A DNA stretch of 64,000 nucleotides from positions 1 to 64,000 of the IMG/VR virus record IMGVR_UViG_3300025030_000086, one strand, 5' to 3'. A model generated the notes under the pieces. The model searched no databases. It was not told the DNA's origin and saw only the letters and a program-made list of their open reading frames with translations. The first letter of the stretch is position 1, and each line of letters begins with the position of its first letter. Position numbers and translations under genes: made by a program. Source of the stretch: a virus. Below are positions 3,978-63,054 of the stretch, one piece after another.

Positions 3978-4769
3978 TTAAAGTAAACATTCTATAATCC
4001 TATTTATCATTATATTTTGATAAAATTCTGTAAAATAAAGTCTTTTTTTCTTACCATTTGTTTTCATATGACAAGAATCACAAAGAGTTATTAGGTTTTC
4101 TGAGTTACTATTCTTTTTGTTGTAATCAATATGATACACATGCAGTATATCATGTATTTCAGTGCATTCAGGATTTTGACACTCATAATTATCTCTTTCT
4201 AAAATAGATTGTTTTAAGGGTTTATTAAATTCTATTGGGTAGGGATTCTTTGAAATACCCTCCTGCCAATTAGGATTATTGCACCCTTTAGTTGTTCCAT
4301 TTTTTAACATTGTTTCGGATATTTTTTGTCTTTGTTCTTCTAAGATAACTCTACCTTTAAATGCTTTAGAATAATTTTCCTTTTGTTTTTCTGTTCTTTT
4401 TTTATCCGTGTTACCCAATTTTATTTTATTTTTAGTTTCCTCAGAAACAGTTCCCCCTTTATTCCACGAGATTAATCCAATGTGCCCTTTTGAAATATTT
4501 TGTCTGTGTTCTTCTGTTATTACTTTTCCTTTTTGAGATTCAGAATTTTTCTTATTAGATACTTCTGTATGCTTTTTACCATACATAGGGTGATTTTCCC
4601 CTTGATTATATTTAGGTCTACATTCTTTTTTTCCACAAGATTTTGCTACTAAACCACTGCCCAACTGTTTTTCAACTTCTTGTAAACAAACAGGGCATTC
4701 ATATAGAGAATGACTTGTATAATTACCATTTTTATTTTTTCTTGTTGGTAATTTTCTAATTAGTTTCAT
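3978..4769 (-). CDS. HNH homing endonuclease with NUMOD3 repeats
   Basis: The 263 residues comprise: an N-terminal zinc-ribbon-like module (residues 1-50, CPVC...KSCG) shared with other mobile genes in this window; two or three NUMOD3-type DNA-binding motifs (GENHPMYGKKHTE, SQKGKVITEEHRQNISKG); and a C-terminal HNH nuclease (about 190-245) with RDNYECQNPEC, HVYHIDYNK and NLITLCDSCH. The reaction expected is site-specific DNA cleavage that promotes copying of the gene. The start codon lies inside the 3' end of the protease gene, and the same bases encode that protein's last residues and stop. It separates the protease from the next structural gene. Confidence 0.88.
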   Translation of the reverse strand: MKLIRKLPTRKNKNGNYTSHSLYECPVCLQEVEKQLGSGLVAKSCGKKECRPKYNQGENHPMYGKKHTEVSNKKNSESQKGKVITEEHRQNISKGHIGLISWNKGGTVSEETKNKIKLGNTDKKRTEKQKENYSKAFKGRVILEEQRQKISETMLKNGTTKGCNNPNWQEGISKNPYPIEFNKPLKQSILERDNYECQNPECTEIHDILHVYHIDYNKKNSNSENLITLCDSCHMKTNGKKKRLYFTEFYQNIMINRIIECLL

Positions 4770-5670
4770 TAAAATACTCTTCCAATAAAGTTAGTATTTC
4801 TTTTTTAAATTCTTCACTCATTTGTAATTGGTCAAAATTTACTTTTTCTAAATGATTTAATGTAAAATCCTTCAACTCCGATTGAGAAATATATCCCCCG
4901 TAACAAAGTTGTCTAATAATATCAATAAAACTATTTGAAAAGTCCATATAATAAGAGTTATACGGTACAGATGTAGCTATAGCTTCTTGATGTAAAGAAA
5001 AAGAATCTAAACAATTTTCTGACAAAACAATGGGGGACAAATTTGTTAAAAAAGGGCGTAAAGTTAAGGCCCCACCTATTAAAACATTTTCAACAACAGC
5101 TCCGGTTTCTTTATTTGTATACTTAGAAGTATACTCTGGGGAAAAATAACGAAATCCAAAATTTTTAATTAAGTCAATTCCAAAATTAGTCAATTCCACT
5201 TTTGCTTTTAATTTATCACCATCAATAAAAAGGTCTTTTATTAAACCAGTTCCCCCATCTTCAGGTTTGTGATTTTTATCTATCATGATATCTCTTCCAA
5301 TTATGTTTTCTTTCCAATTTTTTATAAAATCATTAAACAATTTTTTCGTTCCTTGTATAATCCCGTGAGAAGGGTGATGCCATTTTCCTTCTCTAAACAT
5401 ATCTATTATAATTGTTGTTTTATCCTCTAATTCTTTTAATATAGAATCATCTATCTCTGTTAAATAATAAAAAGATTGTGAAGGGTCTTCTAAATTCTTT
5501 TTTACAACAGAGGAAGCTTGCCTAATAGCCGAAACTTCACATTCTTTAACATCTCCACCTTTATCCATACAACTTTTTAATGCTGAGTTGGCAACTTCCA
5601 CCCACATTTTTTTGTGTTTAGTATCAAGGCCACCATAATGTTTATCAACCGATTCCACAGTCCAGGGCAT
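4756..5670 (-). CDS. Prohead protease, Mu gpI-like
   Basis: The 304-residue protein begins MPWTVESVDKHYGGLD with a ChaB-like N-terminal segment (about 1-60, cation-rich, ending CEVSAIRQASSVV). A protease-like domain follows, with WHHPSHGIIQG, GRDIMIDKNHKP, GLIKDL, ELTNFGIDLIKNFGFRYFSPEY and LRPFLTNLSPI, matching the Mu I-type prohead protease family that matures the capsid. It lies downstream of portal, MuF and the Com-like gene, the usual Mu order. The extreme C-terminus (...FNETN) is specified by DNA that also encodes the start of the homing endonuclease at 4769, so the tail may have been altered by that insertion. Confidence 0.82.
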   Translation of the reverse strand: MPWTVESVDKHYGGLDTKHKKMWVEVANSALKSCMDKGGDVKECEVSAIRQASSVVKKNLEDPSQSFYYLTEIDDSILKELEDKTTIIIDMFREGKWHHPSHGIIQGTKKLFNDFIKNWKENIIGRDIMIDKNHKPEDGGTGLIKDLFIDGDKLKAKVELTNFGIDLIKNFGFRYFSPEYTSKYTNKETGAVVENVLIGGALTLRPFLTNLSPIVLSENCLDSFSLHQEAIATSVPYNSYYMDFSNSFIDIIRQLCYGGYISQSELKDFTLNHLEKVNFDQLQMSEEFKKEILTLLEEYFNETN

Positions 5671-5672
5671 TT

Positions 5673-5861
5673 TTACTCATCTCCTTTAAAGTAATTGTTA
5701 GTATCTTTGTTTAATCCTATATTAATAATTACACCTTTATCAAATACAGAAAAATTCTTACATTTCCTACACTTAACTTCTATCACAGAAGTAATATCCG
5801 TTTTACAAAACAAAGTATTACATTTTGGGCAACGATAGTCTATTATTTTAGTATCTTCCAT
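5673..5861 (-). CDS. Com-like zinc-ribbon protein
   Basis: These 62 residues have a CPKC...CRKC four-cysteine ribbon (YRCPKCNTLFCK, VIEVKCRKCKNF), the hallmark of Mu Com-like proteins. In Mu, Com binds the leader of the mom mRNA and allows its translation. In other phages such genes sit in the head module, as here between MuF and protease. Overlapping gene junctions suggest one transcript. Whether it regulates anything here is unknown. Confidence 0.75.
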   Translation of the reverse strand: MEDTKIIDYRCPKCNTLFCKTDITSVIEVKCRKCKNFSVFDKGVIINIGLNKDTNNYFKGDE

Positions 5862-5863
5862 AT

Positions 5864-6547
5864 TTATCTCTTCTTAATATTAAACATATTCTCTATTTGA
5901 TTTTCAACAAGGTCGTTGCTCTCACTTATTAAATAAGATATAGCTTCCTTCCTAATTTGGGCTTCCTCTCTATTAGTAAAATCAATTTCTGTGTCTTTTT
6001 CAGTTTCTTTCATTAAAATTGTTTGTCCCAATTTGTTTAAAAAGAATACTATATAGAATATTCTCATATTTTCTTTCTCCATAATAGACATTCTCTGTTT
6101 AGCATTTTCAATATTTCTTAACTCTGTTTCTCTAATATATTCTTCTATGCTTAGAACGTCTTTAATATTGAACACAAGTTCGGGTGCTTCGGGTGCGTAA
6201 GGAGATATTTCAATAGGCCCCCCTTTTTTACCTTTAAATGGGATAATAAAAAGAAAAGGTGCATATTTTTTTATCCATTCCTCTTTTGGTCTTTCCCAAT
6301 CTACTTTTGGGATTTTCTCTGCGTCAGAAGTTATAAATCCCCAAGTACATTTGCAATTCGGATGTAGGGGTTGTTGGTAAATAGAATAATCAGGGTCAGT
6401 TGCATCCATAACTTTACCATCTAATGAAGCACATAAAGGACATATATTAGGTTCATGTGTTTTCCATACAAATCTGGTGATTTTTGGGCTTAAAATATCA
6501 GCCAATTTTATATTTTGTAATCTTTCTAAAGATAAAATATTTTTCAT
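5864..6547 (-). CDS. MuF-type head morphogenesis protein
   Basis: The start is taken at 6547 (MKNILSLERL), because this ATG overlaps the TGA of the upstream endonuclease gene. The product is 227 residues. The segment TRFVWKTHEPNICPLCASLDGKVM...HPNCKCTWGF (about 27-75) is the conserved core of the SPP1 gp7/Mu gpF minor head family (CxxC then HPxCxC). These proteins sit on the inner portal side and help capsid assembly or DNA ejection. The second half is charged and helical. It directly follows the portal except for the inserted HNH gene. Confidence 0.82.
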   Translation of the reverse strand: MKNILSLERLQNIKLADILSPKITRFVWKTHEPNICPLCASLDGKVMDATDPDYSIYQQPLHPNCKCTWGFITSDAEKIPKVDWERPKEEWIKKYAPFLFIIPFKGKKGGPIEISPYAPEAPELVFNIKDVLSIEEYIRETELRNIENAKQRMSIMEKENMRIFYIVFFLNKLGQTILMKETEKDTEIDFTNREEAQIRKEAISYLISESNDLVENQIENMFNIKKR

Positions 6548-7335
6548 AGTAAGCACTCAACTATTTTGCTCATCAGGATGTTCTGGTAAAATTCTGTCCA
6601 ATATTGTCTATTTTTCTTCCCATTAGTTTTTGAATGACATGAATCACAAAGAGTTGTAAGATTATCTAAACTATTATTTTGTTTATCATAATCAATATGA
6701 TGAACATCCAATCCTTCGGATAAATGTTCACAGTTAGGATTTTGACAAGTATAATTATCACGTTCTAAAACTTGTGTTTTCTTTTCTTTGTTGAATTCAG
6801 GACTGTATGGTTCAAAACTTGAACCATTGTTCCAATTTGGTGATAATTCACCATATCTATGAACCCCATACATGGGATTATTTATTCCTCTTATTTTATC
6901 TCCATTACCATAATTAGGATTACTTTTTCCTGAAAGCAAAAAACCCTTCCCATACCAATAGTTATTTTCTCCCTTGCTTATCCCTTTTTCTATCCTTGTT
7001 TTAGACATTTTATCTAACGTCTCTTGTGAATAAACATTTATTTTTCCTTTATTCCAAGGTTCTTTGCCTAAGTGAAATTCTCTATTTTTTTGTTTAGATT
7101 CTTCTGTATGATTTTTATCATAAAAAGGGTTGTTTTCCCCTGAAAAATCCTTCCCCTTATTCAATTTGGAAATGAATTCTGACTTATTGCAACCACAAGA
7201 TTTTGCTTTCAACCCATTACTTAATTTTCTTTCTACTATTTTTCCACAATTAGAAATTTTACATAGAAATTCAGCCCAACTTCTTTTATATCCATTTTTA
7301 TCTGTCCTTGTTCCTAATTTTCTAAGTAATTTCAT
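6544..7335 (-). CDS. HNH homing endonuclease with NUMOD3 repeats
   Basis: A 263-residue paralogue of the 3978-4769 product, with the same zinc-ribbon N-terminus (MKLLRKLGTR...KAKSCGC), NUMOD3-like repeats (GENNPFYDKNHTEESKQKN, GKSNPNYGNG) and C-terminal HNH motif (RDNYTCQNPNC, DVHHIDYDK, NLTTLCDSCH). It is placed exactly between portal and MuF: its ATG overlaps the portal stop (TAATG) and its TGA overlaps the MuF start (ATGA). This is the arrangement of a homing gene inserted at an operon junction without breaking either neighbour. Expected activity is a double-strand cut at the empty junction in a related phage. Confidence 0.88.
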   Translation of the reverse strand: MKLLRKLGTRTDKNGYKRSWAEFLCKISNCGKIVERKLSNGLKAKSCGCNKSEFISKLNKGKDFSGENNPFYDKNHTEESKQKNREFHLGKEPWNKGKINVYSQETLDKMSKTRIEKGISKGENNYWYGKGFLLSGKSNPNYGNGDKIRGINNPMYGVHRYGELSPNWNNGSSFEPYSPEFNKEKKTQVLERDNYTCQNPNCEHLSEGLDVHHIDYDKQNNSLDNLTTLCDSCHSKTNGKKNRQYWTEFYQNILMSKIVECLL

Positions 7336-9383
7336 TATATATTTTCTTGGGCTATTTTAGCTCTACCTTTATTTAAGAATAGCATAGATTCTGAGCTTAC
7401 AATGTCTACTAAATTTTTATTCTTTATAGTCTCAAATTGAGATTTAATGTCATTTATAGTATCTTCAGAAGTTTTATTTTCATTAGTAAATGAGGTAAGG
7501 ACAAGTTCTACCCTATATTTTACATTATTAAAAAATTGATCCGTAAGAATTCTACTTCTGTCTTTTATTGAAGATTTGCCTTCTTTATCCACAACAGAAG
7601 CCTCCTCTATTTTAAGTTCCTCTAAAGCTGTCTCCTGTCCAAAAAGGTAACTTTCTTGCATTAATTTAGAAATAGTAGATAACACTTTTGACCTTAAAGG
7701 TTGCCACAAAAGAATATTTTCATTCTCTCCATCTGAAACTTTGGAATAAAATAAGTCTTCAATAGATAATTTATCCGATAATATTTTCTTAACTTTAGTT
7801 AAAATTTGTTCCCCCTGTTTATCAAAAATATTAACTAAATCAGCATAATAATTTTTTTCTAAACTATTCATTTTAGATTCAATTTCAGACAAGGAAGCAT
7901 TTTCCGTCAGATTTACGTCAGAAAATTTCTTTCCTTCGTCTTTTTTGACAACCTTATCCTTTTTATTGTCAATCTCATTATCCTTATTGTCAACCTTAAT
8001 TGAATTGTCAAGTTTTCCTTTACTGTTGTCTCTATTCCTTAATTGATCAGCTACAGTGGTTTCTTGCTCATCTGTGAGAGGTACGCCAACAACATCGGCG
8101 ATTTCTCTTGCAGCAGGAATAGCTGTTCCTTTTTTAATCATTTCCATAAATACATCTTTAAGAAATCCTTTTCTTGCCTCTGTGATACGCTCAATCTTTA
8201 TATAGCATTGTGGTGCTTTAGCACCAAAATTGTATTCAATTAAACGTCTAACAACATATTTATTTAATTGATTCTCAATATCTACTAATAGAGCTTCCTC
8301 ACCTAAAAGGAACATATCGGCGTGAGTTTGAGATAATGAATAAGAACCTGCCTTAGAAGAAGAGTCTTGCGTAATTGTCCTCTCAGGAACAAACATACCA
8401 CGCAACATCTTATTTTCAAAAAAAGTGAGAGCGGAAAGAAACATCTCCCCACGTTTATCATCTAATAAATAGTTTAAATCCCATTTGGGTGGGGTGTTTT
8501 CATATGTAGTAGAAGGTATTGCTATAACAGATTCACCAATAAGAGCTTTACCCATCTCCAATGCTATATCGGCGTGGTCAGTCCCATCCTTAGTTTGTCC
8601 AAGTGGGAATTTTACAATAACAGGTGGTGTCCCCTTGCGTTCAAAATACCTCATCATAAACTGAACTAATGAAATCCACCAATACCAACAATCGTAGGCA
8701 GGTTTTAATCTACTAACACCAAACAAATTACCAAAACTATCGCCTTTATCATGTGTAAAAATAAAGGATTTTTCAACAGGAATATGAATATCTTGCCCTA
8801 CCCACTTTTGAACAATCCCATCAAAGTTTTCCATCTCATCAAGTTTTATATTAACTGTATCTGGGTATAAGGATTTGAATTTTTTCCATACAACAGCTTT
8901 TTTGTCAAAGAAAGATTTTTTCTCATACTTGCGATTAAGAGTTGTATCTTGTACATCATAAACAATCTCATGTGCAGCAAATCCAAAGTCTACAGCAGTA
9001 AGTGTGGAAGTCAATAAGTTGTACCACATAGGTCTTAGTAATTGGTCAATAAATTCACCAATATCTTTATCATCACAAACAGTTGTCCATTGCTGACCAA
9101 TTATAGGTAGTTTTATAACCTTTAACCCAGCGGCTATTTGGGCGTTCATCCGTAGTTTATTATATGTATCTACCGAAATATCGTCTGGATTATATTGGCC
9201 CGCATAGGATTGAATAGCACCTGCTATTTGAGATAAAGGCCCACCATGCTTGGATAATTCACCTTTTTCTACTTTTTTAGAAATAGAATTGGTGAAATCC
9301 TCCAGCAACTTTGCATCTTTTTCAAAGATTTTCTGTACTTGCTTTAGATTTGGTGATTTTTTTAAAGACTTAGTTTTTGGCAT
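7335..9383 (-). CDS. Portal protein, Mu gp29/DUF935-like
   Basis: The 682-residue protein carries the DUF935 signature region (IAAGLKVIKLPIIGQQWTTV, LTAVDFGFAAHEIVYDV, FSFGNLFGVSRLKPAYDCWYWW-type segment, LRGMFVPERTITQDSSSKAGSYS). Such proteins form the dodecameric portal through which DNA is packed. The C-terminal roughly 220 residues add a charged linker (DNSIKVDNKDNEIDNKKDK) and a long helical part. This makes it longer than the usual portal of about 500 residues and could represent a fused MuF-like or internal segment. It is the first gene of the minus-strand head operon, behind the late promoter motif at 9392-9421. Confidence 0.87.
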   Translation of the reverse strand: MPKTKSLKKSPNLKQVQKIFEKDAKLLEDFTNSISKKVEKGELSKHGGPLSQIAGAIQSYAGQYNPDDISVDTYNKLRMNAQIAAGLKVIKLPIIGQQWTTVCDDKDIGEFIDQLLRPMWYNLLTSTLTAVDFGFAAHEIVYDVQDTTLNRKYEKKSFFDKKAVVWKKFKSLYPDTVNIKLDEMENFDGIVQKWVGQDIHIPVEKSFIFTHDKGDSFGNLFGVSRLKPAYDCWYWWISLVQFMMRYFERKGTPPVIVKFPLGQTKDGTDHADIALEMGKALIGESVIAIPSTTYENTPPKWDLNYLLDDKRGEMFLSALTFFENKMLRGMFVPERTITQDSSSKAGSYSLSQTHADMFLLGEEALLVDIENQLNKYVVRRLIEYNFGAKAPQCYIKIERITEARKGFLKDVFMEMIKKGTAIPAAREIADVVGVPLTDEQETTVADQLRNRDNSKGKLDNSIKVDNKDNEIDNKKDKVVKKDEGKKFSDVNLTENASLSEIESKMNSLEKNYYADLVNIFDKQGEQILTKVKKILSDKLSIEDLFYSKVSDGENENILLWQPLRSKVLSTISKLMQESYLFGQETALEELKIEEASVVDKEGKSSIKDRSRILTDQFFNNVKYRVELVLTSFTNENKTSEDTINDIKSQFETIKNKNLVDIVSSESMLFLNKGRAKIAQENI

Positions 9384-11220: not shown

Positions 11221-11790
11221 ATGATATTAATTAAAAAATTAGGCACTCGGTTAGATAAAAATGGTAAAAAACAAAGTTGGGCTATATTTAAATGTCCTAA
11301 ATGTCTACAGGAAGTTGTGAGATTATTGGGGAGTGGGGATAGTCAAAAATCCTGTGGGTGTTATACAAATGTAAAGCATAAAGGAAGTTATACAAGATTA
11401 TATAATACTTGGGCTATGATGAAACAAAGATGTTTAAATCCAAATGTAAAACAATTTAAAAATTATGGTGGTAGAGGTATAACTATATGCAATGAATGGT
11501 CAAATTTCACCCCTTTCAGGGATTGGTCACTAAATAATGGATATGCAGATAATCTACAAATAAACAGAATAAATAATGATGGTAATTATGAACCAAGTAA
11601 TTGTGAGTGGATTTCTCATAAAGAAAATGCAAGACATAGAAGAGGACAGAAAATAAATATGGAAAAAGCTAATGAAATTAGGGCTTTGTGGAATACAGGA
11701 AATTACACACAGAAAGAATTAGCTGAAAAGTATAATGTAAATAGAATAACAATTTCTAAAATAATAAATAATAAAACATGGAAAAATTAA
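11221..11790 (+). CDS. Homing endonuclease-like protein (zinc ribbon, YGGRGI body, HTH)
   Basis: The 189 residues form three modules. A zinc ribbon (1-58; CPKC...KSCGC) is shared with the HNH/NUMOD3 genes. A catalytic-type body follows (about 62-142; YTRLYNTW, KNYGGRGITIC, INRINNDGNYEPSNCEW). Last is a C-terminal helix-turn-helix (about 145-189; ANEIRALWNTGNYTQKELA...). The body resembles a phage HNH-like group in which a D/N-R-I...NCxW segment stands where HNH proteins have HHID...N. It ends one base before the terminase ATG, so it is inserted immediately upstream of terL. Catalysis is inferred, not shown. Confidence 0.75.
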   Translation: MILIKKLGTRLDKNGKKQSWAIFKCPKCLQEVVRLLGSGDSQKSCGCYTNVKHKGSYTRLYNTWAMMKQRCLNPNVKQFKNYGGRGITICNEWSNFTPFRDWSLNNGYADNLQINRINNDGNYEPSNCEWISHKENARHRRGQKINMEKANEIRALWNTGNYTQKELAEKYNVNRITISKIINNKTWKN

Positions 11791-13371
11791 ATGCTTATTA
11801 AAAAGAAAAAAATACTTCCTCCTGAATTAAATGAAGATAATCTTAGACGTTACGTAAAGAACCGGATGGATTTTAGACGGGAGCAGTTTGTATTAGAACC
11901 ATCTCTTGATTTTCCAGAAGGGGGTTTATTTGGAGACTTGTGTCAGCAATGGCAGATAGACTATATATTTAAGCCAATTGATTTGAGAGATGAAAAAGGA
12001 TTTCCATCTTACAGATTGCTTTATATTGGTTTACCTAAGAAATTTGGGAAAACAGCTCTTTTGGGGGGTGAGTGTCTTGTTCAACTATTACTTTCACCCA
12101 GACCAACAGAGGAGAATTATATTTTATCAGGAGACAAGTTTCAAGCCGCTTATTTATTACAAAAAATTAAGGATTTTATAGCTCGTAATCCTAATTTTGT
12201 TGATTTATTCACAATATATAAAAATGAAATAATCGTACCAAGCACGGGTGCAATGATTCAAGTAATGAGTTCAGAAGCCTCATCCAAGCAGGGGCGTAAC
12301 CCAGACTTCTACATTTTTGATGAATTTTGGAATCAGCCAAATAGAGATTTATTTGATACTATGTTCTTGGGGCAAGCAGCCAAACCCTCGTCTCAAGGGA
12401 TTATAATTACAAATACGGGTTACGACAAAAAGTCAATTTGTTGGGAAACACATGAATTATGTCGAAGTGGCGATTTTAAAAACTTTTATTTCTTTGAACC
12501 AACTGGGGTGTTGCTTGAATCTTTAAAAACTCCTTGGATTTCAGAACAATGGTTTGAAATAGAACGTAAATCCATGCCCCCAAAAGTATTTAACCGATTT
12601 CGTAAAAACCTCTGGGTTGATGAGGGAGAACATCCTTTTATGCCAGATGAAGGATGGAAATGTTTTAAATCATATCTTTCAGAAAAATCCATATGTTATA
12701 AAGGCCCTCATTATGTAGGAATAGACCTTGGATTAAAAAAGGATGCAGCTTCTTTAACAGTTCTCCATAGAGCAGGAAGAAAATTGGAAGGGGACATGTT
12801 TAGGAGATGGTTAGGTAGTTCAGAAAATCCTGTAAAGATAAGTGAAATAGAAGATGAATTGATAATGATATTAAGAAATTTCCATGACTGTGTTTTAGTT
12901 TGTGATCCCTGGCAATTAATGGGAACTATACAAAGATTCAGGAGTGTTGGCATTGAGGTCATTGAATTTTATTTAACAGCAGAGAATATTGGAAAATTAA
13001 GTCGTAACTTATTTTACCTATTTAAAAATCAATCCTTAGATTTGCCAAAATATTCAAAACTTGAAGATGAATTGAAAGGACTACAAGTAGTTGAGAAAAG
13101 TTATGGATGGAGGATTGACCATAGTGAGGATACAAGTAGTGATATTACAATGGGTTTAGGTATGGCTGCGGTCGTTGCAATGGAACGTGGGATTGATACC
13201 TATAGCGGAAAAGATTTAGCGGATTTGGGTTTCTTGAATCAAAAATCTATTTTTAAATCAGGTGAAAAAAGAGATTTTATGGAAAAAATTGAAATTATAG
13301 AAAATAAAGTAGATGTGGATAAAACTAATGCAGGCCCAAAAGTGTTTAGCTTTTCTAAGAGGCAATTTTAA
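11791..13371 (+). CDS. terL: Terminase large subunit
   Basis: The 526-residue packaging motor has an N-terminal ATPase with Walker A GLPKKFGKTAL (about residues 80-90) and Walker B FYIFDEFW (about 170-178), then a coupling motif region (IIITNTGYD). The C-terminal RNase H-like nuclease starts YVGIDLGLKKDAASLTVL with its catalytic Asp, and further acids occur in VLVCDPW and near HSEDTSSD. It cuts concatemers and pumps DNA through the portal. The gene lies on the plus strand, opposite to the portal, and is bracketed on both sides by homing-type endonuclease genes with zero or one-base gaps, a typical sign of a homing hot spot. Confidence 0.93.
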   Translation: MLIKKKKILPPELNEDNLRRYVKNRMDFRREQFVLEPSLDFPEGGLFGDLCQQWQIDYIFKPIDLRDEKGFPSYRLLYIGLPKKFGKTALLGGECLVQLLLSPRPTEENYILSGDKFQAAYLLQKIKDFIARNPNFVDLFTIYKNEIIVPSTGAMIQVMSSEASSKQGRNPDFYIFDEFWNQPNRDLFDTMFLGQAAKPSSQGIIITNTGYDKKSICWETHELCRSGDFKNFYFFEPTGVLLESLKTPWISEQWFEIERKSMPPKVFNRFRKNLWVDEGEHPFMPDEGWKCFKSYLSEKSICYKGPHYVGIDLGLKKDAASLTVLHRAGRKLEGDMFRRWLGSSENPVKISEIEDELIMILRNFHDCVLVCDPWQLMGTIQRFRSVGIEVIEFYLTAENIGKLSRNLFYLFKNQSLDLPKYSKLEDELKGLQVVEKSYGWRIDHSEDTSSDITMGLGMAAVVAMERGIDTYSGKDLADLGFLNQKSIFKSGEKRDFMEKIEIIENKVDVDKTNAGPKVFSFSKRQF

Positions 13372-13829
13372 TGAAGTTAATGAAAGACTTAGGTATAAGG
13401 TTAATTAAAGGGCATTGGTTTAGGTATGCTATATTTAAATGCTCTGAATGTTTACAAGAAGTTGAAAGACAAACAAGTGCAGGAAAAATAACAAAATCTT
13501 GTGGTTGTGTTAGATACTCAGAAAATAAAAAGAATTATAAACATGGGTTTTCAAAAACAAAATTATATATGATTTGGAATAATATGAAACAAAGAGTTTT
13601 AAATCCTAAAAGAGATAATTATAAATATTACGGTGGAAGAGGAATAACAATATGTCCAGAATGGACAGATAAGTTAAATGGATTCATTACTTTTAGAGAT
13701 TGGGCACTAAGTAATGAGTATGCAGACAACTTAGTTATTGATAGAATAAATCCAGATGGTAATTATGAGCCATCTAATTGTAGATTTTTAACTATTGAGG
13801 AAAGCAATAGAAATAAGAGAAAGAATTAA
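13371..13829 (+). CDS. Homing endonuclease-like protein (zinc ribbon, YGGRGI body)
   Basis: 152 residues: the shared zinc ribbon (MKLMKDLGIR...CSECLQEVER...KSCGC) and the YGGRGI body (KYYGGRGITICPEW, VIDRINPDGNYEPSNCRF). The C-terminal HTH present in its paralogues is absent, so the protein stops about 40 residues earlier. Its ATG overlaps the terL stop codon (TAATG). The lost HTH may mean reduced target binding or a decaying copy. Confidence 0.72.
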   Translation: MKLMKDLGIRLIKGHWFRYAIFKCSECLQEVERQTSAGKITKSCGCVRYSENKKNYKHGFSKTKLYMIWNNMKQRVLNPKRDNYKYYGGRGITICPEWTDKLNGFITFRDWALSNEYADNLVIDRINPDGNYEPSNCRFLTIEESNRNKRKN

Positions 13830-34734: not shown

Positions 34735-34828
34735 AATACAGTGGTATGATTTACAAATTTTTTTTGATACAGTGGATTGATTTACAAATTTTTTTTGATA
34801 CAGTGGTATGATTTACAAATTTTTTTTG
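34735..34828 (+). repeat. Three 31-bp tandem repeats
   Basis: Three copies of a unit beginning GATACAGTGG(T)ATGATTTAC and ending in a T8 tract. The middle copy has one changed position. The repeats abut the 42-bp array. Confidence 0.9.
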
Positions 34829-34970
34829 ATATGGCGGTAAAGGTCTTCAGGATTGCCATTATATGGCAGGATATGGCGGTAAAGGTCTTCAGGATTGCCA
34901 TTATATGGCAGGATATGGCGGTAAAGGTCTTCAGGATTGCCATTATATGGCAGGATATGGCGGTAAAGGT
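34829..34970 (+). repeat. Three and a half 42-bp tandem repeats
   Basis: The unit starts GATATGGCGGTAAAGGTCTT and ends TTGCCATTATATGGCAG. TGCCAT-TAT-ATGGCA is a perfect hairpin, and ATGGC/GCCAT can also pair across the unit. Because 42 is divisible by three the array gives a spurious repetitive frame. Iteron-like; no spacers of CRISPR type. Confidence 0.92.
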
Positions 34971-36269: not shown

Positions 36270-36452
36270 ATGAAAACATTTTCTATCGAAAAGCAAAATG
36301 AGTTAGGTAAAGAGATTGCTTTAATTCTCTGCTTGAAGAAAAATAAAAATGAAAAATATGTCACAATGTGGGGAGAGAAAACGGCAATTGGTTTATTAAA
36401 TTTAGTTTGCAGAATTGTTAAAAGTATAGAAATTATGGGGGGAGAACTATAA
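36270..36452 (+). CDS. Small conserved hypothetical protein
   Basis: 60 residues with KYVTMWGEKTAIGLLNLVCRIV, a pattern (Y.T.WG.KT..GL) found in small phage proteins. SD AAAAGGAGAAC. It directly precedes the ComM-like gene, and its last codons carry that gene's SD, so they may function together. Confidence 0.55.
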   Translation: MKTFSIEKQNELGKEIALILCLKKNKNEKYVTMWGEKTAIGLLNLVCRIVKSIEIMGGEL

Positions 36453-37076
36453 ATGAAAACAAGTCTATATGAAAGGAAAATTGCATATAATAATATAAAA
36501 GGCAATGAACTTTTAAAAAGGGCCATAGAAGTATCTTTAACTGGACAGCATACCATAACTGTTATTGGCAATGTTGATAATGGAAAAGAATATTTAGATA
36601 TTGTATTTAAGTCAAGAACAGAATATTGTGGAGAAGACCCCATATTTAATGAAAATTTATTTACTTTTGTACAACCTTGTTTTTGCGGTAATTTTGGTGA
36701 TGAGGGTTGTGGTTGTTCAGTAGAAGAGATTATATTACATAAAAGATCAAAGGAATATATAAATGCTATGAAAAGTCAAATAATTGTTAAATTAGAAAGA
36801 CCCCTATTTAATGAGATTGTTAGTGTATTAACAGGAGAATCTTTCCAAAACGTTGTGGACAGGATATATACATTTAATAGGTTAAAAACAATTGAAGGAA
36901 CTGATCAAGACGCAATGGAATTTTTAAAAACTGCATATAATAAATTGTTGTTTACAGGTAATCAAATAAATAGAGTTTTGGCAGTTTCAAGAACAATTGC
37001 AATAATGGATAATTCTGGTAGAGTTAAAGCTCATCATATAGCAGAAGCTATACAATATCAAGCATTAGATTATTAA
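36453..37076 (+). CDS. Miniature ComM/YifB-like (Mg-chelatase family) protein with altered Walker A
   Basis: 207 residues against about 500 in ComM/YifB. The N-terminus IKGNELLKRAIEVSLTGQHT is the family's VKGQ..AKRA.EIAA.G.H segment, but the P-loop reads GNVDNGKEY rather than GPPGxGKT. The region carrying Walker B is deleted. It rejoins at CFCGNFGDEGCGCSVEEI (the family's CPCG..GD....C.C) and ends with the C-terminal domain (NRVLAVSRTIAIMDNSGRVK, then HHIAEAIQYQALDY). ComM is a branch-migration helicase in transformation. This form likely cannot hydrolyse ATP and could bind or poison a host homologue. Recombination role is inferred. Confidence 0.75.
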   Translation: MKTSLYERKIAYNNIKGNELLKRAIEVSLTGQHTITVIGNVDNGKEYLDIVFKSRTEYCGEDPIFNENLFTFVQPCFCGNFGDEGCGCSVEEIILHKRSKEYINAMKSQIIVKLERPLFNEIVSVLTGESFQNVVDRIYTFNRLKTIEGTDQDAMEFLKTAYNKLLFTGNQINRVLAVSRTIAIMDNSGRVKAHHIAEAIQYQALDY

Positions 37077-38591: not shown

Positions 38592-38740
38592 AAACATGGT
38601 TTGGTGTAGAGTTTAAAGGTTTTTATGTTGGTAAAGTCTATTGTAATAAGCAAGACCTTATTAATGAATTCAATAAACAATTCATGTATGAGATACAAGG
38701 GAATTTGTTTAAGGTTTTTGGAAAAATTGGAAAAAGATGA
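38588..38740 (+). CDS. 50-residue ORF
   Basis: MKTWFGVEFKGFYVGKVYCN...; basic, beta-like. Coupled to both neighbours by ATGA overlaps, including the helicase gene. Unknown. Confidence 0.5.
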   Translation: MKTWFGVEFKGFYVGKVYCNKQDLINEFNKQFMYEIQGNLFKVFGKIGKR

Positions 38741-40425
38741 AAACAATCCATATTAAAGATAATGTATTAATAATAAAGATACCGTATGATATTAATCTTG
38801 TATCATTAATCAAGACTTTCTTTTCCGGTAGGTCATGGGATAGCAATTTAAAAGTCTGGAAGTGCCCTGTAAATGAAAAGAATTTAATAGCTACCTACTC
38901 CATGATAGAAAATCATGACTTTACTGTATTTCCTGAAATGATGATTGAACTCGAAAAATATAAAGGACAATTTGAAATACAGAAGGTTGAAAATGAAAAG
39001 AAGATAGCAGCCTCAAAAGCTATAGATGCAAATATTGAGATACCTAATTTGAAGGGAGAACTCTTCCCGTTTCAAAAAGCAGGAGTGCAATTCATAGAAA
39101 ATACCAATGGTAAAACCTTAATAGCTGATGAAATGGGGTTAGGGAAGACCTTGCAATCAATAGCTTATTGCCAATTACATGCAGAAAAAAGACCTATTTT
39201 AGTTATTTGTCCAGCAACATTAAAGTTGAATTGGCAAAGAGAATTTAGAAAATGGACAAATATAAAAAGCTATGTTATAAATTCGCAAGATCTCAAATAT
39301 CAGCTACCTATCTATGAAGCATACATTATTAATTATGATATAGTGGGGAAAATGGAAACATTGCTGAATAAGATGAAATTTCAAGTAATGATATTGGATG
39401 AAGCACATTATTTGAAAAACCCAAAAGCATTACGGTCAAAAGCAATAAATGGATTAAATAAGAATATACCCCATATTTTGGCATTAACTGGTACACCAAT
39501 ACTTAATAGACCTGTTGAAATATTTAATATTTTAAAGATGTTAAGTCCTCAAAATTTTGGCAATTATTTTGATTTTGTGAAAAGATATTGTGGAGCTACC
39601 TATGGAAAATGGGGTCTGGATGTATCAGGAGCTACCAATATTCAAGAATTAAGTGATAAATTACGAGCAACAGTAATGATCAGAAGGGAAAAAAAGGATG
39701 TATTGGCAGAATTACCAGACAAGACAAGGGTAGTAGTCCCTCAAATATGTGATTTAAAAGCATACAAAAAAGTAGAGGATGATTTAATAAATTACTTAAT
39801 TGAATCAAAGAATAAGTCAAAACTTGCAGCGGAAAAAATTAGTCAAGTAGAACAATTGGCAAAAGTTGAATATGCAAAACAGGAAGCGGTTAAAGCAAAA
39901 CTCCCCCTATTTATTGAATGGAGTAAAGATTTTATTGAGGAAAATGGTAAATTAGTAATTTTTGCTCATCATAAAGAATTTGTTGAAAAGTTAATGTTTG
40001 AACTGAAGGACTATAATCCGGTTAAAATAGTGGGTGGTATGGAAATTGAGGATAAACAATCCTCAATAGATGCTTTCCAAAATAATAAAGAATGTAAAGT
40101 AATTATTTGTAGTCTAAAAGCCGCTGGTGTTGGGATAACTTTAGTTGCAAGTAGTTATGTAGCATTTTTAGAGTTAGGATGGACACCCGGTGAACATGAT
40201 CAGGCTGAAGATAGACTACACCGGATAGGGCAGAAAGATAATGTTACTTGTTATTATTTTTTGGCAGAAAATACTATTGAGGAAACAATTTACGATCTAC
40301 TTCAGAAAAAAAGAGATATTTTTCAAAAACTAATGCAAGATCAACATACAATTATAGGAACTCTTGATAATAATATTCTGAATGATTTAACAAATAAAAT
40401 AGTAAATAAAAATGAAGTTAATTAG
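38737..40425 (+). CDS. SNF2-family DNA helicase/translocase
   Basis: 562 residues. A small N-terminal domain (1-100) with FFSGRSWDSNLKVWKCPV precedes the helicase core: motif I ADEMGLGKTLQS (about 129), II ILDEAHYLKN (about 220), III LALTGTPILN, and in the second lobe VIICSLKAAGVGITL and motif VI QAEDRLHRIGQ. The N-terminal wrap resembles HARP/SMARCAL1-like proteins. It should translocate on duplex or forked DNA, aiding replication restart. The C-terminal residues (KNEVN) overlap the start of a homing endonuclease gene. Confidence 0.92.
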   Translation: MKTIHIKDNVLIIKIPYDINLVSLIKTFFSGRSWDSNLKVWKCPVNEKNLIATYSMIENHDFTVFPEMMIELEKYKGQFEIQKVENEKKIAASKAIDANIEIPNLKGELFPFQKAGVQFIENTNGKTLIADEMGLGKTLQSIAYCQLHAEKRPILVICPATLKLNWQREFRKWTNIKSYVINSQDLKYQLPIYEAYIINYDIVGKMETLLNKMKFQVMILDEAHYLKNPKALRSKAINGLNKNIPHILALTGTPILNRPVEIFNILKMLSPQNFGNYFDFVKRYCGATYGKWGLDVSGATNIQELSDKLRATVMIRREKKDVLAELPDKTRVVVPQICDLKAYKKVEDDLINYLIESKNKSKLAAEKISQVEQLAKVEYAKQEAVKAKLPLFIEWSKDFIEENGKLVIFAHHKEFVEKLMFELKDYNPVKIVGGMEIEDKQSSIDAFQNNKECKVIICSLKAAGVGITLVASSYVAFLELGWTPGEHDQAEDRLHRIGQKDNVTCYYFLAENTIEETIYDLLQKKRDIFQKLMQDQHTIIGTLDNNILNDLTNKIVNKNEVN

Positions 40426-40981
40426 AAAATTGGGGACAAGAATAAGTAAAAGTGGTCGGTTAGTAAGTTATGGTATATATCTTTGTCCATTTCCAGAATG
40501 TTTAGCAGAAGTTGAAAGACCTTTGGGTAATGGGGAAAGAAAAAAGTCTTGTGGGTGTAGAAGAAAAAAGGGGAATAGCTATACAAGATTATATAAAATT
40601 TGGACAGGTGTTAAAAATAGATGTTTTAATTCCAACAATCAAGCATATTTAGACTATGGTGGAAGAGGAATAACAATATGTCCAGAATGGACAAATGATT
40701 ATACTACTTTCAGAGATTGGGCATTAAATAATGGTTATCAAGAAAACTTAGTTATTGATAGGATTAATCCTGATGGTAATTATGAACCCTCTAATTGTAG
40801 ATGGTTAACAATATTAGAAAGTTTGAGAAATAAGACAAATACAATAACTATGGAAATAGCTAATGAAATTAGAGATTTGTATAAAACAAAAAATTTTACT
40901 CAACAAGAAATAGCTGATAAATTTAATGTAAGTCAAGAAACAGTGTCTTTAATTATAAATAATAAGCAATGGATAAAATAA
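40412..40981 (+). CDS. Homing endonuclease-like protein (zinc ribbon, YGGRGI body, HTH)
   Basis: 189 residues with all three modules: zinc ribbon (CPFPECLAEVER...KKSCGC), YGGRGITICPEW...VIDRINPDGNYEPSNCRW body, and HTH (NEIRDLYKTKNFTQQEIAD). The ATG lies 14 bases inside the SNF2 gene, and the shared bases AATGAAGTTAATTAG end that protein. It is followed directly by ATG of the next gene (TAAATG). Best-preserved member of the family. Confidence 0.77.
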   Translation: MKLIRKLGTRISKSGRLVSYGIYLCPFPECLAEVERPLGNGERKKSCGCRRKKGNSYTRLYKIWTGVKNRCFNSNNQAYLDYGGRGITICPEWTNDYTTFRDWALNNGYQENLVIDRINPDGNYEPSNCRWLTILESLRNKTNTITMEIANEIRDLYKTKNFTQQEIADKFNVSQETVSLIINNKQWIK

Positions 40982-42105: not shown

Positions 42106-42540
42106 ATGAACAAAAGAAATTACAAACATGGGGAATCCTATGTAAGGTTACATAATATATGGGGATTAATGAAACAAAGAATTTTAAATCCTAATAGTAA
42201 AAATTATAAATATTATGGTGGTAGAGGAATAACAATATGTCCAGAATGGACAAATGATTATATTGTTTTCAGAGATTGGGCACTAAATAATGGTTATAAA
42301 GAAGGATTACAAATACACAGAGAAAATGATGGGAATTACGAACCAGATAGTTGTAGATGGGTAACAAGAACTGAAAATTTAAGACACACAAGAAAAACTA
42401 TAACTATGGAAATTGCTGATGAAATTAGAGATTTGTACAAAACAGGGAATTTTTCCATGCAAGAGTTAGGAAATAAATATAGCATAAGTAAACAAATGGT
42501 ATCTTACATTTTGAATAATAAAAATTGGAAAAATGTTTGA
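42106..42540 (+). CDS. Homing endonuclease-like protein lacking the zinc ribbon
   Basis: 144 residues. It starts directly at the body (MNKRNYKHGESYVRLHNIW, KYYGGRGITICPEW, IHRENDGNYEPDSCRWVT) and keeps the C-terminal HTH (DEIRDLYKTGNFSMQELG). The N-terminal ribbon of its paralogues is missing and an AGGGG site has been acquired instead. The D-R-I core reads H-R-E, so activity may be changed. The promoter at 42537 overlaps its stop. Confidence 0.7.
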   Translation: MNKRNYKHGESYVRLHNIWGLMKQRILNPNSKNYKYYGGRGITICPEWTNDYIVFRDWALNNGYKEGLQIHRENDGNYEPDSCRWVTRTENLRHTRKTITMEIADEIRDLYKTGNFSMQELGNKYSISKQMVSYILNNKNWKNV

Positions 42541-44279: not shown

Positions 44280-44894
44280 ATGCGATTAATTAGAAAATTA
44301 GGAACAAGGAAAAATAAAACAGGTAATAATTATACGAGTTGGGGTGTATTTTGGTGTAACTTTTGTAAACAAGAGGTAGAAAAAGAATTATCTGTTGGTA
44401 GAAGGTATAAATCTTGTGGTTGTGTAAGATATTCAGAAAATAAGGGTGATTATAAACATGGTGGAAAAGGGACAAAATTATATAATGTATGGCAATCTAT
44501 AAAACAAAGAATTTTAAATCCAAATAATGAAGCATATAAAGATTATGGTGGTAGAGGAATAACAATATGTCCAGAATGGACAAATAAAGAAAATGGATTT
44601 ATAAATTTCAGAGATTGGTCACTAAGTAATGGTTACAAAGAAGGATTACAAATAAATAGAATAAATAATGATGGTAATTATGAACCATCTAATTGTAATT
44701 TTATCCCAGCTAAAGAAAATAATAAAAATCAAAGATTGAGAAAAGATAGTAAAATAAAAAATATTGAAATAGCTAATGAAATTAGAGCTTTATATGCTAT
44801 AGGAAATTATATACAAAAAGAGTTAGCAAGTAGATTTAATATAAGTCAAGCAACAATTTCTTTAATTATTAATAACAAACAATGGGTGAAATAA
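44280..44894 (+). CDS. Homing endonuclease-like protein (zinc ribbon, YGGRGI body, HTH)
   Basis: 204 residues, longest of this subtype. Ribbon (CNFCKQEVEKELSVGRRYKSCGC), linker with YKHGGKGTKLYNVW, body (YGGRGITICPEW, INRINNDGNYEPSNCNF) and HTH (NEIRALYAIGNYIQKELAS). The YKHGGKGTKLY segment is the closest match to the fragment at 14236. Placed between two small unknown genes with three-base and zero-base gaps. Confidence 0.76.
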   Translation: MRLIRKLGTRKNKTGNNYTSWGVFWCNFCKQEVEKELSVGRRYKSCGCVRYSENKGDYKHGGKGTKLYNVWQSIKQRILNPNNEAYKDYGGRGITICPEWTNKENGFINFRDWSLSNGYKEGLQINRINNDGNYEPSNCNFIPAKENNKNQRLRKDSKIKNIEIANEIRALYAIGNYIQKELASRFNISQATISLIINNKQWVK

Positions 44895-60618: not shown

Positions 60619-63054
60619 TCAAATATCAAAAATTTCCTTTATTGAAAAAATGTCAAACCAATTATTCCCAATACTTCCTTCTACTACTAAAGGCACATCA
60701 ATCATAAAATCATATTGTTTCATTTCCATTATTCCTTGAATTTCCTCAATAGCATCTTTGGCATCTTGCTCTTTTACACACATGATCAATTCATCATGGC
60801 AGTTTAAATAGATCCAATAACCTCTTCTTGATATTTTATTCATTACTTTACTTACAATAGAAGAGGCTCCTCCCTGAACAGGTGTATTTAGAATTTCATT
60901 AGTTGTTAATGGGGCATATCTTCTACGCCCAGGGGGGATCTCAACATATCTCTTTTTTTCATAAATTTTAAGTATTCCTTGTTGCCACTCCAAAATCTCT
61001 GGAAAATCAAACCAAAGTTTCTCAAGCAACATCTCTGCTTTTGATTCTGAAATACCTAATCTTTTAGCCGTAGATTTTGGTTTAGACCCATAAAATGAGG
61101 GAAACACAAATTCGTTTTTAGCTCTGTATCTCATCATTTTAACAGATTTTTGTGTAGCATTTTTAATAACTTCTTCACCCCAAATCTCTACAGCCTTAGC
61201 CATATGAATATCATATCCTGAAATGATGGCGTCTATTAATTTTCTACAATTACTTAGAGCAGCTAAAACCCTTGCTTCTAATTGAGCATAATCAAATATA
61301 ATTAATACATATCCGTCAGGAGCCACAATTATTTGTCTAATTTCGGGATGTTTCCTCTTATCCAAATTTTGTAAATTTATATCTGAACTTCCTAAGCGTC
61401 CAGTTTCTATTGGATAAAAATTTGTATGATATTTCCCATCTGGGAATATACAATCCTTATACCCCTTTAATATCTTACCTTCTATACCTGAGTATTCCCT
61501 AAATTTTAATAATAATTCACAAAATCTGCTCTGTCCTACATAAGTTGCCAAAACTTCTTTATCAACCGCTGGTTTACCAGCTTTTTTGGTCTTTTTGAAA
61601 GATTCTAAATTTTCTATTTGAAATAATATTATAGGAATATCTTTACTATTAGATTTCAAAGCTGGCATTTTGCCATATTTGCTTTTAAATGTTGTTATAC
61701 TATCTAAATTAAATAATTCTTTTTCTATATTCTCTCTTTCAATCACATAATCTTTTAATAATTTATCTCTACTCTCCTCATTTGTACAAGCACCATCGTA
61801 TTGAATCTGTGCTATAGTTATTGCAGTTTCTAATTGCTCTCTATAACAATTATTTAATTTTTCATCCTTATCTAATAATTTTTCCTGCTTTTTAAAAATT
61901 CTGTATTCCCAAATAGAATCTTTAGCATTATAATCAAGTAACTCTTCAATTGGTAATTGTGTCAAATCCTCCATTATAGAATTTGGATAAGTTTTCCAAC
62001 TAACACCATAATTCACAAATGCTAAAAAATCTAAACTGCGTGTTCCATTACGACAATCCAATATATATTTCTGTAGCATTGAATCTTCAATATTAGTTAT
62101 ATCAATATTTAAAATAGCTTTGACCCATTCCATTTCAAATACAGAATTATGTATACCTTTTCTACTTCTTGGATTTGTTAATAGGTCTGAAAATCTACTC
62201 TTTATCTGTTTTTCCTGTTCATCTGTCCAATATTTTTTCTTATCTATAAATGTATGATAACTTATAGGAAAGGCATAAACTGTTTCACCATCAAAGGTAA
62301 TGGCACTTGTTAATATTTTAGATTTTTCAAAATATGGTTTTAATCCAAGAGTTTCTATATCAAATACAAAAAAATCCTTATTATCAGCCATATCAAAAAA
62401 GCTTGTAACTGCTTGATATGTAAGCAATTTGATAATTTTAAAAGGTTTTGGTTGTGGAAGAGGGACAGTAATTAAATCTTTAACAATTGATAAATCTTCT
62501 CTTAATACTTTTAAAGAATCGGTGTAATTTGTACCTTTAGTCCATTGTATTTTGTTATCTGAAACTCCATCTTTCAAGATTTTAGACATTGGAAATACTG
62601 GAACTACCCAGCAATTCAAATCATGTAATGGTACAATATTGCCTCTCCATCCATGAATCCCAGGCTCAGATCTATTAAGTAAAGATTTAATAGCAGCATT
62701 GCCCATTGCTATTATTACTTTAGGTTTTGCTTTTTTAATATCGGCAAATACTTTTGGTCTACAAGCATTTATCTGAATATCCGTTGCTCCATCTTTATCC
62801 GCTTTGCAAGAAACCGCATTATTATATCTTACTTTTTCAGGATTGATTTTTAAATGTTCTAAAATTGTATTAAGGACTTCACCGGATTCCCCCTTAAAAG
62901 GTTTCCCCATTAAATCATCTCTTTCAGAAGGCCATTCACCAAGTATATATATATCAACATTCTCAGGCCCAATGGGGGTCATTTCGGGGGATTTGCACTT
63001 TTTGGACAAGTCACAATTGGAGCAAAAAGGAGATTTTAATTCGTCAAATGCCAT
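60619..63054 (-). CDS. UDG-DNA polymerase I fusion (family A)
   Basis: 811 residues in three parts. Residues 1-165 are a family-4-like uracil-DNA glycosylase with four Fe-S cysteines (CSNC...C and CKADKDGATDIQINAC), ILGEWPSERDDLMGKPFKGESG and AMGNAAIKSLL. Residues about 215-400 are a DEDDy 3'-5' exonuclease (FVFDIETLGLK, HNSVFEMEW, YNAKDSIWEY). The polymerase follows: motif A IFDYAQLEARVLAAL, motif B RYRAKNEFVFPSFYG, motif C LNCHDELIM. It replicates the phage genome; the glycosylase part may sense uracil. N-terminal UDG-like domains are known in some phage polymerases such as that of SPO1. The GE-P-ED motif is altered (SERDD), so activity is open. Confidence 0.92.
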   Translation of the reverse strand: MAFDELKSPFCSNCDLSKKCKSPEMTPIGPENVDIYILGEWPSERDDLMGKPFKGESGEVLNTILEHLKINPEKVRYNNAVSCKADKDGATDIQINACRPKVFADIKKAKPKVIIAMGNAAIKSLLNRSEPGIHGWRGNIVPLHDLNCWVVPVFPMSKILKDGVSDNKIQWTKGTNYTDSLKVLREDLSIVKDLITVPLPQPKPFKIIKLLTYQAVTSFFDMADNKDFFVFDIETLGLKPYFEKSKILTSAITFDGETVYAFPISYHTFIDKKKYWTDEQEKQIKSRFSDLLTNPRSRKGIHNSVFEMEWVKAILNIDITNIEDSMLQKYILDCRNGTRSLDFLAFVNYGVSWKTYPNSIMEDLTQLPIEELLDYNAKDSIWEYRIFKKQEKLLDKDEKLNNCYREQLETAITIAQIQYDGACTNEESRDKLLKDYVIERENIEKELFNLDSITTFKSKYGKMPALKSNSKDIPIILFQIENLESFKKTKKAGKPAVDKEVLATYVGQSRFCELLLKFREYSGIEGKILKGYKDCIFPDGKYHTNFYPIETGRLGSSDINLQNLDKRKHPEIRQIIVAPDGYVLIIFDYAQLEARVLAALSNCRKLIDAIISGYDIHMAKAVEIWGEEVIKNATQKSVKMMRYRAKNEFVFPSFYGSKPKSTAKRLGISESKAEMLLEKLWFDFPEILEWQQGILKIYEKKRYVEIPPGRRRYAPLTTNEILNTPVQGGASSIVSKVMNKISRRGYWIYLNCHDELIMCVKEQDAKDAIEEIQGIMEMKQYDFMIDVPLVVEGSIGNNWFDIFSIKEIFDI

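Follow-up and report, generated by a model that had tools for sequence, protein, structure and literature searches.

Phages carry a so far undescribed family of small proteins, here called mini-ComMs, that descend from ComM, a branch-migration helicase conserved in bacteria and known chiefly for its part in natural transformation. Sequence, profile-profile comparison and predicted fold show that the part inherited is the AAA+ and Mg-chelatase-C part of ComM. Because the residues and segments essential for the ATPase are missing, and the proteins are nonetheless predicted to fold and are kept across very diverse phages, I infer that mini-ComM is an ATPase-dead, phage-borne ComM offshoot that acts by binding and not by ATP hydrolysis. 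The phages seem to keep it to bind something, possibly host ComM itself.

The mini-ComM gene and its ComM ancestry

The stretch of DNA analysed (the window) is 64 kb out of a 73,157-base IMG/VR virus record. A strong Shine-Dalgarno sequence, GGGGGGAG, precedes the mini-ComM ORF, and translational coupling with the 60-residue ORF directly upstream is probable (Table 1). An earlier, sequence-only reading had described a 207-residue protein with the start and end of the ComM family, and this is borne out by Pfam, where both matches lie above their cut-offs: Mg_chelatase (PF01078) at residues 13–48, with 23 bits over only the first 36 positions of the model (cut-off 20.3), and Mg_chelatase_C (PF13335) at residues 143–203, with 41.2 bits (cut-off 26). 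The YifB/ComM equivalog TIGR00368 gives 53 bits, against a full-length cut-off of 362 bits.

In a phmmer search against PDB sequences, Legionella ComM (8RXD) is the sole real match, in three co-linear pieces, with residues 9–48, 69–93 and 154–203 of the window protein corresponding to ComM 188–227, 341–367 and 447–496. The first piece closes with a degenerate Walker A motif, G39-NVDN-G44-K45-E46 (GNVDNGKEY), in which Glu46 takes the place of Thr225 of L. pneumophila ComM. The linker that follows stands for the ComM helix-2 insert, Walker B, sensor 3 and pre-sensor-1 hairpin, and the spacing from RA to PCxCG is 52 residues, compared with 146 in ComM. The loop PCFCGNFGDEGCGC is retained and has the CxCG...CxC pattern of a four-Cys zinc loop; at this loop the sensor-1 Asn is a Gln, and N170 occupies the Arg-finger position R463. 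GNVDNGKEY in place of GPPGxGKT, the absence of Walker B and the retention of the four-Cys loop, all noticed earlier, are thus confirmed in the window protein.

Table 1. The mini-ComM gene, its parts and neighbours in the window, and relatives in IMG/VR contigs.
Feature	Position	Strand	Basis or remark
60-aa ORF, no known family	36270..36452	+	directly upstream; stop codon abuts the mini-ComM ATG
Mini-ComM gene	36453..37076	+	207 aa, ATG start; ComM/YifB-derived, predicted ATPase-dead
N-terminal helix (KRAIEV) and beta1, residues 9–48	36477..36596	+	phmmer alignment to 8RXD
Short linker	36597..36656	+	replaces about 90 ComM residues (alignments, distances)
Four-Cys (zinc) loop LFTFVQPCFCGNFGDEGCGC	36657..36722	+	alignment to 8RXD, residue table
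Mg_chelatase_C domain, residues 143–203	36879..37061	+	PF13335 41.2 bits; ends AHHIAEAIQY
SNF2-family helicase	38737..40425	+	PF00176 133.6 bits
Mini-ComM relatives (IMG/VR)			L002/L023/L057, L036/L050, L038/L058, L040/L052, L042/L051, L043/L055
Mini-ComM relatives (IMG/VR)			L044/L054, L045/L049, L098, L103, L121, L134
Mini-ComM near-identical group (IMG/VR)			L088/L090/L124/L128/L132

The earlier reading had made its case hinge on structural similarity to ComM, and the predicted fold does match that of ComM. An AlphaFold (AF2) model of the window protein (pLDDT 81, pTM 0.79) has ComM 8RXT as its best Foldseek match (E 3.3e-5, TM 0.63–0.67 on the query). Since the alignment used for this protein held four ComM rows, the divergent member L052 was modelled with a minis-only alignment; its model reaches pLDDT 87.7 and pTM 0.84, and the top Foldseek matches are MCM and ComM AAA+ domains. 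Profile-profile comparison of the minis alone with ComM gave a probability of 99.8% and E 1.5e-28 across 126 aligned columns. Of the 14 minis, 13 stand apart from 15 ComM sequences in a tree (support 90/96), and the remaining one, L055, floats on a long branch; a single clade for all minis was not rejected (p-AU 0.258). From the tree and the shared deletions described below, a single origin is simplest, and two origins are possible.

Members of the family and the parts they have lost

Searching IMG/VR with conserved stretches of mini-ComM yielded 13 further distinct phage relatives of 150–226 aa, and one 105-aa form (L041/L059) that is the C-terminal domain alone. The aligned set therefore holds 14 distinct proteins of 150–226 aa, the window protein among them. 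PF13335 matches all 14 and PF01078 nine, and every contig checked has a single PF13335 gene. The search for other phage homologues with a broken P-loop, suggested in the earlier reading, thus gave 13 distinct proteins, none of which has a canonical Walker A. Because the same architecture is found in 14/14 distinct phage relatives, all with PF13335, that of the window protein is beyond chance. I define the family by an RAxE helix together with PF13335, two shared deletions, the lack of a motor and carriage by a phage, and the window protein has all of these. By these membership tests, and at the level of sequence, mini-ComM is no ComM helicase and is a new phage-borne degenerate ComM derivative.

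Every nucleotide-handling motif examined is missing in 14/14 mini-ComMs, in agreement with the ATPase loss proposed at the outset. Neither Walker A (GxxxxGK[ST]) nor Walker B ([FYL]LDE, its segment deleted) occurs in any of the 14; the sensor-1 Asn is Q, K, T, D or missing; the sensor-3 Arg is gone in all, and likewise the Arg of LLDR. The trans-acting Arg finger (R463 of L. pneumophila ComM, SAR motif) is replaced by N, M, E, K, S, Y, G, T or P, and is R in 0/14. The Lon-like ChlI domain (PF13541) is also absent from the whole set. Two internal deletions are common to all members. The first, of about 90 residues with Walker B and the DNA hairpins, lies between the P-loop and PCxCG, the distance from the RAxE helix to PCxCG being 32–52 residues in the mini-ComMs that keep PCxCG, versus 146 in ComM. 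The second, of roughly 20–45 residues, precedes the Mg-chelatase-C domain (95–126 versus 143–144 residues in ComM). P-loop remnants are seen in a few members (GNVDNGKE in the window protein, GEARIGKN in L054, GPRGSSKT in L055) and are erased in the others, as expected for decay once function is lost.

All 14 proteins have the RAxE N-terminal helix and the C-terminal domain, and seven, the window protein among them, have all four cysteines; the conservation of HIAEA is partly ascertainment, since this motif was search bait. The proposal that the parts for subunit contact are retained therefore stands for the N-terminal helix and strand, the Mg-chelatase-C domain and, in half of the members, the zinc loop, and fails for the Lon hexamerisation module, which is absent, and for the Arg finger, lost throughout.

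The family appears to be phage-borne and, as a prophage, rare or absent in sequenced hosts. A signature pattern that 5/14 mini-ComMs have and typical ComM does not was matched three times in 84,980 prokaryotic genomes, never in a ComM-like gene, and an earlier prokaryotic-genome scan with another part of the protein found none; resting on partial signatures, these scans do not prove that the family is absent from the genomes. Plasmid records gave no mini-ComM and full-length YifB only, on large replicons; isolate-phage records gave no mini-ComM and full-length bacterial comM only. Among family models and PHROG, none covers the group beyond PF13335, PF01078 and marginal single matches.

Several kinds of match were set aside. 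Tblastn matches in the phage record collection proved to be either full-length ComM genes surrounded by bacterial genes on unverified faecal contigs or the host's comM where it borders a prophage, and the IMG/VR matches to the bacterial-type C-terminal pattern came from contigs whose ends lie in host comM. The 'Bacteriophage sp.' records MT835528, MT835672, MT835691, MT835546 and MT838869 carry full-length bacterial comM, beside dprA-like and topA-like genes in MT835528, and in MT837251 comM is truncated at the record end; such comM-bearing records are probably bacterial contamination. Two giant phage proteins (L039 2215–9363, 2382 aa; L079 2394–7481, over 1690 aa) contain a stretch resembling the Mg-chelatase-C end, with the motif IA...HIAEA[IV]QY, which scores 25 bits to PF13335 over the last 24 positions in L079 and gives no match in L039; they were left out of the confirmed members. 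The 73.7-kb viral contig L106 encodes, at 6237–7709, a full-length ComM homologue with Walker A GAPGSGRT (Lys to Arg), adjoining RadC and an SSB-like gene, a further case of ComM with an altered motor on a phage or other element.

A separate group of viral contigs ends in host comM (L010, L014, L021, L022, L016, L018, L019/L020, L024, L026, L028/L099, L031/L084, L122, L034, L035 and L037). The junctions cluster at the codons of the P-loop (aa about 215), MNPCxCG (~345) and LLDRID (~382), and beside six of them lie genes for proteins whose N-termini, on visual inspection, look like those of large serine recombinases, which suggests preferred integration sites within comM. In L019/L020, an apparent serine recombinase and the C-terminal portion of comM are fused in frame into one 713-aa ORF (4033–6174). 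It may be coincidental that two of the junction motifs, the P-loop and MNPCxCG, also delimit the segment that mini-ComM lacks.

Gene neighbourhood and possible functions

Mini-ComM genes sit within runs of small ORFs. A recurrent partner gene was sought around them and no constant one was found, many of the contigs being fragments. The SNF2 helicase is the only neighbour common to three mini-ComM phages (the window phage, L057 and L058; 3/10 tested). RadC was rejected as an obligate partner (2/22 contigs, the window not among them), as was a MoxR/VWA partner of the kind found in Mg chelatase (1/20). RecA is encoded in 4–5 of 20 contigs, the larger ones. Integrase genes are mostly absent from these often fragmentary contigs, and were found in the window and, broken, in G006. 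The window phage itself encodes RecA, a gp32-like SSB, SbcCD-like genes, a clamp loader and a family A polymerase. In L103 (6249–8920), mini-ComM is followed by RadC and a RadA-like ATPase, so that three recombination-linked genes lie together.

Other features of the window phage are recorded here. Seven related ORFs spread across it (3978–4769, 6544–7335, 11221–11790, 13371–13829, 40412–40981, 42106–42540 and 44280–44894) resemble HNH homing endonucleases (SCGC zinc knuckle, GGRGITICPEW). A stretch without a long ORF, upstream of the mini-ComM region, contains two adjacent tandem arrays (34736–34970) of a 31-bp unit (x3.1) and a 42-bp unit (x3.4), with 100% identical copies. The family A DNA polymerase (60619–63054) has a 3'-5' exonuclease domain and, at its N-terminus, a uracil-DNA-glycosylase-like domain. 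A conserved protein of unknown family is shared with a second mini-ComM phage (window 25514–26434, L050 4466–5344), and its motif GGAIVSLVLNEKVNDFDVYF is nucleotidyltransferase-like in appearance.

The leading mechanism, which I favour tentatively, is that mini-ComM is a decoy or poison of host ComM. L. pneumophila ComM is monomeric in solution and needs ATP and DNA to assemble; the Arg finger R463 at the ATP site of a subunit comes from the C-terminal domain of its neighbour, and the Lon domain has been named the common hexamerisation module (PMC11612176). The Mg-chelatase-C domain of mini-ComM, with the zinc loop where present, would dock onto a host ComM subunit and, offering no ATP site, Arg finger or Lon contact, would cap or poison the hexamer. 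Assembly would be blocked because a finger-less, motor-less copy occupies the subunit face, and ComM so poisoned would no longer carry out branch migration on recombination intermediates during infection. The small phage protein 77ORF104 blocks the self-assembly of DnaI (PMC4887207), and mobile elements repeatedly disrupt comM (PMC11472951). The lack of a constant neighbour and the runs of small ORFs would be expected of a gene whose product has a host protein as its partner.

Against such a decoy, half of the members are without the zinc loop, and co-assembly with ComM is not obvious for proteins that have neither the Lon module, the main one for hexamerisation, nor an Arg finger. The version in which DNA uptake is stopped is weakened, since most mini-ComM phages show no prophage signs; protection from transformation-mediated curing is likewise a weak motive for phages that look mostly non-integrating, and nothing was found tying the mini-ComM phages to competent hosts. 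The general statement that uncultivated phages of many kinds use a captured, shrunken, motorless ComM to disable host ComM-driven branch migration in infection is put forward as doubtful.

A phage-internal role is also a serious, if uncertain, possibility, and the window phage's own RecA, gp32-like SSB and SbcCD-like genes fit it equally well. Mini-ComM would then be a structural or DNA-binding accessory of the phage replication or recombination machinery, with its C-terminal helical domain now serving for protein-protein contacts. The SNF2 helicase near the gene in three phages, the RecA of four or five larger contigs, the full recombination set of the window phage, the RadC and RadA-like neighbours in L103 and the retained zinc loop and fold all favour such an adaptor; the low partner counts given above (SNF2 3/10, RadC 2/22, RecA 4–5/20, MoxR/VWA 1/20) speak against it, weakly, as the contigs are fragments.

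It is rather improbable that mini-ComM is a counter-defence or takeover protein directed at another host AAA+ machine, with its ComM-like C-terminal domain as the decoy. Its place among small accessory ORFs would suit such a protein, and phage proteins that disable AAA+ ATPases are known (77ORF104/DnaI, PMC4887207), but PADLOC and the other searches gave no link beyond marginal single matches, and the nearest relative by both sequence and fold is ComM, not a defence ATPase. It is very hard to sustain that mini-ComM is a relic without function, left from a piece of host comM that a phage picked up, for example when a comM-resident prophage excised imprecisely. Prophages are indeed inserted in comM at the codons of the P-loop and of PCxCG, the two motifs between which the missing segment lies, but a relic would be expected to show frameshifts and no sharing between phages, whereas in fourteen deeply diverged members from unrelated phages the ORF is uninterrupted, the core foldable and the architecture shared. 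That mini-ComM is a working ATPase whose Walker B and Lon parts are supplied in trans by another gene is scarcely credible, since, although the window protein still has the P-loop residue K45, the P-loop is lost altogether in most members, the other PF01078 matches in the window are the clamp loader, and a gene for the Lon-like ChlI domain was found in 0/19 mini-ComM contigs, being present in L106 only, in the different, full-length protein.

Why mobile elements target ComM is an explicit open question (PMC11472951). Phage-borne motorless relatives point to ComM, or to the recombination step it serves, mattering in infection, and mini-ComM offers a small, predicted-foldable protein for a direct test of the role of ComM there. 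If the decoy mechanism is true, mini-ComM would be a soluble counterpart of the comM disruptions caused by prophages and resistance islands.

Comparison with known systems

The closest known system is ComM/YifB itself (TIGR00368; 8RXD/8RXT, Legionella pneumophila), with which mini-ComM shares the N-terminal helix, beta1 of the AAA+ core, the four-Cys loop, the C-terminal Mg-chelatase-C domain and the overall fold. ComM is ~510 aa long, whereas the mini-ComMs are 150–226 aa, are carried by phages, and are without the Lon domain, Walker B, the sensor 1 and 3 residues, the Arg finger and the DNA hairpins. The MCM and other superfamily 6 AAA+ helicases have the same fold in the reduced AAA+ core and lid, according to Foldseek; unlike them, mini-ComM has no motor and no N-terminal domain and is far smaller, and its kinship by sequence is to ComM. 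BchD/ChlD of Mg chelatase are AAA+ relatives that have lost their ATPase and may sit with an active partner; in contrast, mini-ComM is without a VWA domain and without an identified active partner gene. The phage 77 ORF104 protein, an inhibitor of the helicase loader DnaI, is a hypothetical functional likeness, in that both would block AAA+ self-assembly; the two are not homologous as far as known, and ORF104, unlike mini-ComM, is not derived from its target.
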